This document shows, in pieces, positions 61,728 to 64,000 of a DNA stretch of 64,000 nucleotides. Made by a program: the position numbers and the translations under genes. The notes beneath the pieces are model-generated. The model was not told where the DNA came from and searched no databases. It saw only the letters and a program-made list of their open reading frames with translations. The DNA comes from Candidatus Thioglobus sp. (GTDB lineage: Bacteria > Pseudomonadota > Gammaproteobacteria > PS1 > Pseudothioglobaceae). The stretch is taken from positions 1-64,000 of the forward strand of contig JAOMCO010000005.1 in NCBI GenBank assembly GCA_028345055.1, given 5' to 3'. Numbering within the stretch: position 1 is the stretch's first letter; each line of letters begins with the position of its first letter.

Positions 61728-62915
61728 ATGAATCACGAAATAGTTATTGTTGCAGCTACAAGAACTGCTCTTGGTTCTTTTGGGGGCTCCCTTTCTAAAA
61801 TACCTGCGCATAAACTAGGCTCTGCAGTTATTTCATCTTTAATTCAAAAGACTGGAGTGGATAATAATCAAGTTGATGAGGTTATCCTTGGCCAGGTTTT
61901 AACTGCTGGAAGTGGGCAGAATCCAGCTAGGCAGGCAGCAATGGATGCGGGTCTTTCTGAAATAACTCCAGCAATGACAATTAATAAAGTCTGCGGAAGT
62001 GGATTAAAGGCAGTCCAGCTTGCATTTCAAGCTGTTGCTTGCGGCGATGCTGAAATAGTAATTGCGGGTGGCCAAGAAAATATGAGTCTCTCTGGACATG
62101 TTTTGCCGCGTTCAAGGGATGGTAAAAAAATGGGCCCATGGGAGATGGTTGATACTATGGTTGTAGATGGTTTATGGTGCGCATTTAATGACTATCATAT
62201 GGGCGTTACGGCTGAAAATATTGCATCTAAGTTTGACTATACAAGAGAAGATCAGGATCAATTTGCAGCGTCGTCTCAACAGAAAACTGAATCTGCACAA
62301 ATCTCAGATCTTTTCCAAGATGAGATAACCCCAATTACAATTCCTCAAAGAAGGGGTGATGATGTTGTTTTTGATACAGATGAATATCCTAGACATGGAA
62401 CTACAGAAGAATCACTTTCAAAACTCAAACCAGCATTTAAAAAAGATGGAACTGTTTCAGCTGGAAATGCATCGGGCATTAATGACGGTGCAGCAGCAGT
62501 TATGGTTATGAGTTCTGCCAAAGCAAAAGAACTTGGGCTTAAACCAATGGCTAGAATTGTCTCTTATGCAAGTGCAGGGGTCGATCCAAAAATTATGGGA
62601 ACGGGCCCAATTCCAGCAAGTTCTAAGTGCTTGGAAAAAGCGCGTTGGAAAGCCTCTGATTTAGATCGAATTGAGGCTAATGAAGCTTTTGCAGCTCAGG
62701 CTATGTCTGTGAATGATTCTCTTGGCCTTGATAAGTCTAAAGTAAACGTCACAGGAGGAGCTATTGCTCTTGGTCATCCCATAGGAGCTTCTGGAGCAAG
62801 AATATTGGTAACACTTCTTTATGGTATGCAGCGTGATAAAGTCAACAAGGGCCTTGCAACTCTGTGCGTTGGAGGTGGAATGGGCGTTGCTATGGCAGTT
62901 GAAAGAATTCAGTAG
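61728..62915 (+). CDS. Acetyl-CoA C-acetyltransferase (thiolase)
   Basis: A 395-residue biosynthetic-type thiolase (AtoB/PhaA class) that reversibly condenses two acetyl-CoA. The acyl-accepting Cys89 lies in '[18 protein letters not shown]', and the C-terminal His and Cys in '[15 protein letters not shown]' and '[16 protein letters not shown]'. Length is the usual one. No phaB/phaC or HMG-CoA genes are adjacent, so direction and pathway (acetoacetate degradation, PHB, other) are open. A TATAAT (61693-61698) lies 30 bases upstream of the ATG as a possible -10. The gene is preceded by the Na/Pi gene on the same strand but with an 83-base gap. Confidence 0.93.
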
Positions 62916-63088
62916 CTAACTAAGCTATTAATAAATCATTTTTTTAAGATTAAATAAATAATTCATATTGACATACAATATTTAATTTTTAAATAAAACA
63001 TCTTAAATTATCTTAATGATTGTCATCAATTGTTATGTTATTATGTGGCACAATATCGTAAAAATCCATAGGGAGTTAAATTAAAAAA

Positions 63089-63117
63089 AGGCTTGGAAAC
63101 AGGAAATTGTTCAGCCT
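63089..63117 (+). other. Stem-loop 1 in the leader of the BMP transporter gene
   Basis: AGGCT (63089-63093) pairs with AGCCT (63113-63117), and an inner stem GAA-CA/TGTTC (63096-63112, one bulge) closes over a small loop. It lies about 100 bases before the BMP start codon, in a leader without ORF. It does not have a following T run, so it is not a terminator. Could be part of an aptamer or mRNA-stabilising structure. Confidence 0.4.
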
Positions 63118-63149
63118 CTTAATATATTTTTGAGACTGAATGAGAGGGG

Positions 63150-63186
63150 GTAATACTTCTGCATTATTTAGTAATGCTTGTATTAC
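63150..63186 (+). other. Stem-loop 2 (nested hairpin) next to the BMP ribosome site
   Basis: Outer stem GTAATAC (63150-63156) / GTATTAC (63180-63186) encloses an inner stem GCATTA (63161-63166) / TAATGC (63172-63177) with a five-base loop. The hairpin ends 17 bases before GGAG (63204-63207), so it may control translation or serve as an attenuator (a short ATTTTA follows). The strand-symmetric pairing over 13 base pairs is much more than expected by chance in a non-coding leader. Confidence 0.55.
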
Positions 63187-63213
63187 ATTTTATAAACAAT
63201 AAAGGAGTAAATA

Positions 63214-64000
63214 ATGAAAATAGGAAGTTTTAGTAAACTATTAATCATAGCCTTATCTAGCTTTGTTTTGTCAGGTCAGGTATTTGCTGACAAAATAAAA
63301 GTTGCAGGTGTCTACACTCAGCCACTTCAGCAAAAATGGGATGCAAGGTTACATCTAGCATTGCAAGCTGCAGCAGATAGAGGTGAAATCGATTATGTAA
63401 ACTCAGAAAAAGTTTCAAACACAGACTATGTTAGGGTTTTAAGGGAATATTCTGAAAGCGGAGTAGACCTTATAGTTGGTGAGGCTTTTGGAATAAGTGC
63501 TGAGGCTAGAAAGGTAGCTGATGACTATCCAAACATAGCGTATCTAATGGGAGATCCTGGAAGTGGATATGGTGGAGAGCATGGAAGTAATTTTTCAGTA
63601 TTTGATAATTATATTCATGAGCCTTGCTATTTGATGGGGATTATTGCTGGAGGCATGACTGAAACCAATAAAATTGGTATGGTAGGTGGTTATGCAATTG
63701 GTGAAGTAAACCGCTTGTTCCATGCATTTATGGCTGGTGCAAGGTCAGTTAATCCAGACGTTGAGTTTAAAGTAAGCTTTATTGGCTCTTGGTATGATCC
63801 ACCGAAAGCAAAAGAAGCAGCATTTGCTCAAATTGAAGCTGGTGTTGATGTACTTTATGCAGAGCGTGCTGGTGTAGTGGATGCTGCTAGAGAGAAAGGC
63901 ATACTTGCATTCGGTAACGTTAATGATATGAATAAAGAGGAAAATGGCACAGATGTTGTTGTCACATCAGCTTTATGGCATATGGAAAATGCAATTGATC
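63214..64000 (+). CDS. BMP-family ABC transporter substrate-binding protein (3'-truncated)
   Basis: The window ends within this gene; 262 residues are visible. The N-terminus is a Sec signal peptide (MKIGSFSKLLIIALSSFVLS, cleavage after 'VFA'). The mature part has the BMP/PnrA fold: 'KIKVAGVYTQPLQQKWDARL', 'GVDLIVGEAFGISAEARKVA', 'YLMGDPG' and 'NKIGMVGGYAIGEVNRLFHAFMAG'. BMP proteins bind nucleosides or related bases and work with a nucleoside-type ABC importer expected downstream. GGAG (63204-63207) precedes ATG 63214. The 298-base upstream gap holds the two hairpins listed separately. Confidence 0.9.
   Translation, partial: MKIGSFSKLLIIALSSFVLSGQVFADKIKVAGVYTQPLQQKWDARLHLALQAAADRGEIDYVNSEKVSNTDYVRVLREYSESGVDLIVGEAFGISAEARKVADDYPNIAYLMGDPGSGYGGEHGSNFSVFDNYIHEPCYLMGIIAGGMTETNKIGMVGGYAIGEVNRLFHAFMAGARSVNPDVEFKVSFIGSWYDPPKAKEAAFAQIEAGVDVLYAERAGVVDAAREKGILAFGNVNDMNKEENGTDVVVTSALWHMENAID

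Follow-up and report, generated by a model that had tools for sequence, protein, structure and literature searches.

A covarying two-hairpin leader ahead of a putative pyrimidine-catabolism operon in the Pseudothioglobus lineage

The window, that is, the whole stretch of 64,000 nucleotides analysed here, comes from a genome of 1.31 Mb in 54 contigs. Close to its end a thiolase ORF (61728-62915) is followed by a gap of 298 nt (62916-63213), and this gap by an ORF that starts at the ATG at 63214 and encodes a BMP/PnrA-type substrate-binding protein (63214-64000, + strand; PF02608, E 1.2e-32), the first gene of an operon. The 298 bases that the first-pass annotation had placed upstream of the BMP gene were thus confirmed. 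The BMP gene runs beyond the window, to contig position 64218, the full ORF having 334 aa (locus L041). Among the named proteins closest to its product (90-99% identical) are those of the PS1 clade, Candidatus Thioglobus autotrophicus and Candidatus Pseudothioglobus aerophilus, and for this reason the genus was taken as Pseudothioglobus. In one genome of the genus, G009, the BMP gene was found in two frames (L048:6256-7260) while the rest of the operon was continuous; this split gene is either an assembly error or a recent pseudogene.

In G000 and in G028, a genome assembled as one contig, the operon starts with the BMP gene, an ABC ATPase, two permeases, a cytosine deaminase and an omega-aminotransferase. 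It continues with a methylmalonate-semialdehyde dehydrogenase, a carbamoyl-amide hydrolase, an NMT1-type ABC importer and a dihydropyrimidinase-like amidohydrolase, and ends with two dihydropyrimidine dehydrogenase-like subunits followed by a TetR regulator carrying a YcdC C-terminal domain. This gene set suggests that the operon is devoted to reductive pyrimidine catabolism. The absence of parts of the operon means little in G000, G018, G012, G004 and G022, because contig ends cut it in these genomes. An import of nucleosides had been proposed from the BMP family, and with it a leader sensing such ligands; a BMP gene on the + strand does head the operon, but the guess about the ligand needs changing, as the genes are those of pyrimidine breakdown with a RutR-like regulator of their own.

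RutR is described as the repressor of the rut operon, its box being a palindrome of approximately 16 bp (PMC10891134). The TetR gene that closes the operon is RutR-like and recalls this control of pyrimidine use, with the differences that RutR acts at the DNA level and not through a leader, and that the match (~145-155 bits) is far below the cut-off of 368 of the RutR family (TIGR03613); the protein is perhaps a divergent uracil-responsive repressor. Its gene lies ~18 kb downstream of the leader, on the same strand, in G028, G009, G002 and G016, and it was found in 10 of the 29 genus genomes, seven of them with the leader. The gene occupies L145:8424-9083 in G028 and is similar in G009, G002, G016, G017, G003, G007, G022, G012 and G004. 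A search for RutR boxes with a strict 16-bp pattern examined 73 loci (L057-L129) with more distant BMP genes from other proteobacteria and detected a RutR-type palindrome, TTGACCNNNNGGTCAA, in 8 of them; these eight (L060, L062, L065, L080, L081, L089, L097 and L129) carry it 77-228 nt upstream of the BMP match. The same strict pattern was absent from the genus loci L041-L049, where the RutR operator may have been lost or changed. Because no RutR-type operator was found in the genus loci, we infer control by the RutR-like regulator from gene position only.

Within the gap, the element shared by the genus spans 63104-63216 (all features on the + strand) and comprises two hairpins, P1 and P2, an AU-rich spacer and the AAAGGAG-ATG start region. 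P1 (63107-63143) pairs 63107-63118 with 63132-63143, and 10-12 of its 12 pairs are kept in all nine genus genomes that carry the leader; AAAUU is invariant before and at the base of P1 in the nine. P2 (63150-63186) has an outer stem of 7 bp (63150-63156/63180-63186, GTAATAC/GTATTAC) and an inner stem of 6 bp (63161-63166/63172-63177, GCATTA/TAATGC), with 100% and 86% of the alignment cells paired, respectively, and its length ranges from 35 to 48 nt across relatives. The single-stranded spacer that follows (63187-63200) has 7 of 14 columns invariant among the nine genomes, and the Shine-Dalgarno sequence AAAGGAG (63201-63207) is invariant in 9/9. The 13-bp nested hairpin of the first-pass annotation is therefore P2, 7 bp plus 6 bp as it had stated. 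Its other stem-loop, at 63089-63117 (AGGCT/AGCCT, 5 bp), did not hold: just 3 of the 9 relatives aligned have all of its pairs, and its 3' arm is actually the 5' arm of P1, which takes up the same AGCCTC, so that this first stem must be redrawn as P1.

Upstream of the two hairpins we read from the sequence a candidate extended -10 promoter, TGTTATTAT (63036-63044, + strand), which is identical in G028 and is not listed by a promoter consensus scan; RNA from this candidate would begin near 63051, upstream of both hairpins. Four relatives (G018, G007, G003 and G016) show TTGACA-N17-TAnCCT at a roughly corresponding position. A small GNRA-type hairpin, P0 (CUUG-GAAA-CAGG; 63092-63103, + strand), keeps 4/4 pairs in 7 of 9 relatives and 3/4 in G003, and is deleted in G007; strong covariation was not found in P0 among the nine relatives.

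Folding of the segment from -110 to -27 (63104-63186) gave z = -3.3 against dinucleotide shuffles, the best value for the matching segment upstream of 22 other window genes being -2.13; the entire 298-nt gap folded unremarkably (z = -0.30). Far stronger evidence came from comparison among relatives. In the alignment of the nine genus orthologs (A4), 93.2% of the 236 pair cells of P1 and P2 were canonical, and both-side changes occurred in 6 of 27 pairs and in 14 cells, counts that lean towards structure because A4 was fitted to the fold of G017, from which the structure was taken. No shuffle matched the count of both-side changes by cells (0/500) and 13/500 matched it by pairs; further pair types were no more numerous than in shuffles (206/500). 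Sliding the partner by 1-3 columns brought pairing down to 32-46%. Both-side changes were seen in 1 of 7 pairs of the outer stem of P2 and in 3 of 8 of its inner stem. P1 pair 9/36 occurs as GU, GC, UG and CG, with at least eight substitutions on the gene tree, and is paired in all nine genomes, and P2 pair 59/86 has undergone at least four changes between AU and GC. Pairing fails at some positions: two rows break P1 pair 12/33, four break the lowest inner pair of P2, and G009 and G002 break the top pairs of P1. The RNAalifold consensus energy was -21.1 kcal/mol, against -0.96 +/- 1.2 for column shuffles that did not keep dinucleotides, none of which was as low (0/300).

From the covariation and the shuffles it follows that P1 and P2 are conserved as a real RNA structure. 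The leader is thus long and structured, as had been claimed, and covariation, whose absence from related genomes was to count against that claim, is present among the nine relatives. The covarying stems keep their position ahead of one and the same gene, as expected of a conserved cis-acting 5' UTR element. That the hairpins formed by chance in an AT-rich gap, or are the decayed remains of an upstream gene's 3' end, is extremely improbable and largely refuted: an ORF of 72 aa does cover the P1 region in G002, and short open frames are common in the leaders, but the G002 frame is interrupted in its nearest relative, G009, start and stop positions are unconserved among the nine, and chance is rejected by the covariation and shuffles. 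A protein-coding remnant was discarded since the 72-aa ORF is limited to G002. The outer arms of P2 form a 7-bp inverted repeat, paired in all nine genomes, which might be read as a DNA operator for a transcription factor instead of RNA. We regard this as very unlikely, as the spacing of the arms varies with the length of P2, compensatory changes make both P1 and the inner stem covary, and the free use of G-U pairs fits RNA.

The distribution of the element follows that of the BMP gene. A DNA search of 95 relatives returned leader matches in nine genus genomes, including the window's own; a tenth match, in G077 (E 6.8e-4, 40 bases), was short and dropped as chance. By protein search, BMP orthologs (75-100% identity) occur in 9 of the 29 genus genomes, while each of the remaining genomes has either paralogs alone, at 32-37%, or no match. 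The covariance model R1, constructed on the nine leaders, detected the same 9 of 29 genomes with E below 1e-13, one copy each and always ending at the BMP start codon, so that the element is found in 9/9 genus genomes with a BMP ortholog and in 0/20 without one; two weak R1 matches in the genus (G022 and G001, E about 0.5) were attributed to chance. Searched against 83 genomes of the order, R1 had no match outside the genus; its best match among the 73 more remote BMP loci, which come from alpha-, gamma- and other proteobacteria, was at chance level (21.2 bits, E 2.6); and in 369 genomes of the class, under strict filters, the window's own genome was the only match among the rows listed (21 of 369). 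The element is genus-specific and occurs within the genus only with this operon.

The leader of the window and the DNA upstream of it are closest to G028 (88%), whereas the BMP-ATPase gene tree groups the window's genome with G018 (L002/L042, L003/L043), which makes recombination likely, with a break between the leader and the coding region.

An Rfam scan of the window returned four tRNAs only. In the leader, with E allowed up to 10, the best matches had 18.3 and 17.6 bits, far below thresholds, and eight relatives gave one chance-level match, located outside the leader. The best riboswitch match, preQ1-II (RF01054; 17.6 bits and E 2.7, where the gathering score is 47), overlaps P2 and the Shine-Dalgarno sequence, but it has several broken pairs and was rejected, the leader not being a member of this class. 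The lack of a match to known riboswitches reported by the first-pass annotation was accordingly upheld with Rfam.

Aptamers conserve their unpaired bases. Across the nine genomes, invariant unpaired columns numbered 3 of 14 in the P1 loop, 1 of 14 in the P2 loop, 1 of 6 in the linker and 0 of 3 in the P2 internal loop, and conserved aptamer-like unpaired positions were not found in the leader. Out of 28 genome pairs, identity exceeded that of 4-fold sites in 22 for the stems, in 8 for the unpaired hairpin positions and in 27 for the spacer plus Shine-Dalgarno sequence, counting a gap against a letter as a mismatch and omitting G009, because its BMP gene is broken. We did not find a terminator in the leader of the window, nor a short ORF common to the nine leaders, and an attenuator with a leader peptide was therefore rejected. 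As for the ribosome site, the nine leaders yielded no supported helix that masks it. The native fold beat shuffled hairpins for access to the Shine-Dalgarno sequence in >50/60 trials in only 4 of 9 genomes, the other five being near average or below; the hairpins thus show no consistent effect on the site, whether masking or freeing it.

These results bear on whether the leader could act as a riboswitch at the level of translation, with a pyrimidine as its ligand (uracil, cytosine, dihydrouracil or thymine) and with P1 and P2 forming or framing an aptamer that gates ribosome access. Such a switch would fit with a conserved structured leader that precedes only the opening gene of an operon for importing and degrading pyrimidines, and also with an alternative helix between the 5' arm of P1 (AUUGUU) and the bases just before the Shine-Dalgarno sequence (AACAAU), which is possible in 96% of cells and appears in the minimum-energy fold of G028. 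However, this helix shows no both-side change, 201/500 shuffles score as high and a second helix with the same P1 arm scores equal to it; moreover, the element is limited to one genus and the operon already contains a RutR-like regulator. Since the loops, linker and internal loop, with their few invariant bases, drift like synonymous sites, a riboswitch is unsupported on present evidence, and the first-pass proposal of a riboswitch or attenuator did not stand. We consider the pyrimidine riboswitch improbable, and its more specific form, a new class for a pyrimidine base or breakdown product in which a ligand-dependent exchange between P1 and the pre-Shine-Dalgarno helix would set translation of the importer, still less probable. 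Two riboswitch reviews contain neither of the terms uracil and cytosine (PMC10043782, PMC7266159), and a literature search returned no report that links a riboswitch to both uracil and pyrimidine catabolism, or to both pyrimidines and basic membrane proteins, and none on pyrimidine use in Pseudothioglobus; if the leader did bind a ligand, it would define a class of pyrimidine-base riboswitches. As the operon ends, where assembled, in the RutR-like gene, it is more likely that uracil would be sensed at the DNA, via the RutR-like protein.

The main rival to a role of the hairpins by themselves is that an RNA or an RNA-binding protein acts on the leader in trans, for example Hfq with an sRNA, or RNase III by processing at P1/P2. 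The long conserved double-stranded stems and the invariant AAAUU are typical targets of such factors, and structure is kept while loops drift, but the hairpin loops hold no conserved single-stranded seed, and CsrA, the sole factor tested, was not found in the genus genomes. Control by CsrA, suggested by GGA motifs in some loops, was rejected, csrA being found in 0 of the 29 genus genomes (G000-G028) by a search that did detect it in E. coli, B. subtilis and T. maritima. We regard a trans-acting factor as possible, though unlikely.

With moderate confidence we favour a lineage-specific 5' UTR element that would act by its shape, in mRNA protection or ribosome loading, and not as a metabolite sensor. 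The two tandem hairpins end at -27, just above the AU-rich spacer and a strong Shine-Dalgarno sequence, and would act by shape and not by metabolite binding. They probably shield the 5' end of the ~18-kb pyrimidine-catabolism mRNA from RNase entry, slowing its decay, and probably hold the ribosome-loading site of the first gene free of long-range pairing; ABC importers need their binding protein in excess. Transcription of the operon is probably controlled apart, at the promoter, by the RutR-like TetR regulator encoded at the 3' end. In the computed folds, however, the hairpins insulate the ribosome site only weakly, which counts against the proposed role.

Stabilising stem-loops of the ompA type are found in the 5' UTRs of enterobacterial mRNAs. 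The present leader resembles them in having stem-loops near the putative 5' end, above an unstructured ribosome site, with loops free to vary, and would likewise prolong half-life; it differs in that it has no sequence relation to them. With this work a streamlined marine lineage gains an RNA element that is supported by covariation, is lacking in the copy of Rfam 15 searched and is linked to the uptake and breakdown of pyrimidines. Comparable orphan leader motifs are the ffh and rhtB elements of Candidatus Pelagibacter (PMC2704228). These belong to Alphaproteobacteria and precede other genes, and some Pelagibacter elements have conserved loops or a terminator, whereas the P1-P2 leader has neither; like it, the ffh and rhtB elements are described as small covarying hairpins placed before genes in a streamlined, AT-rich marine genome (PMC2704228).
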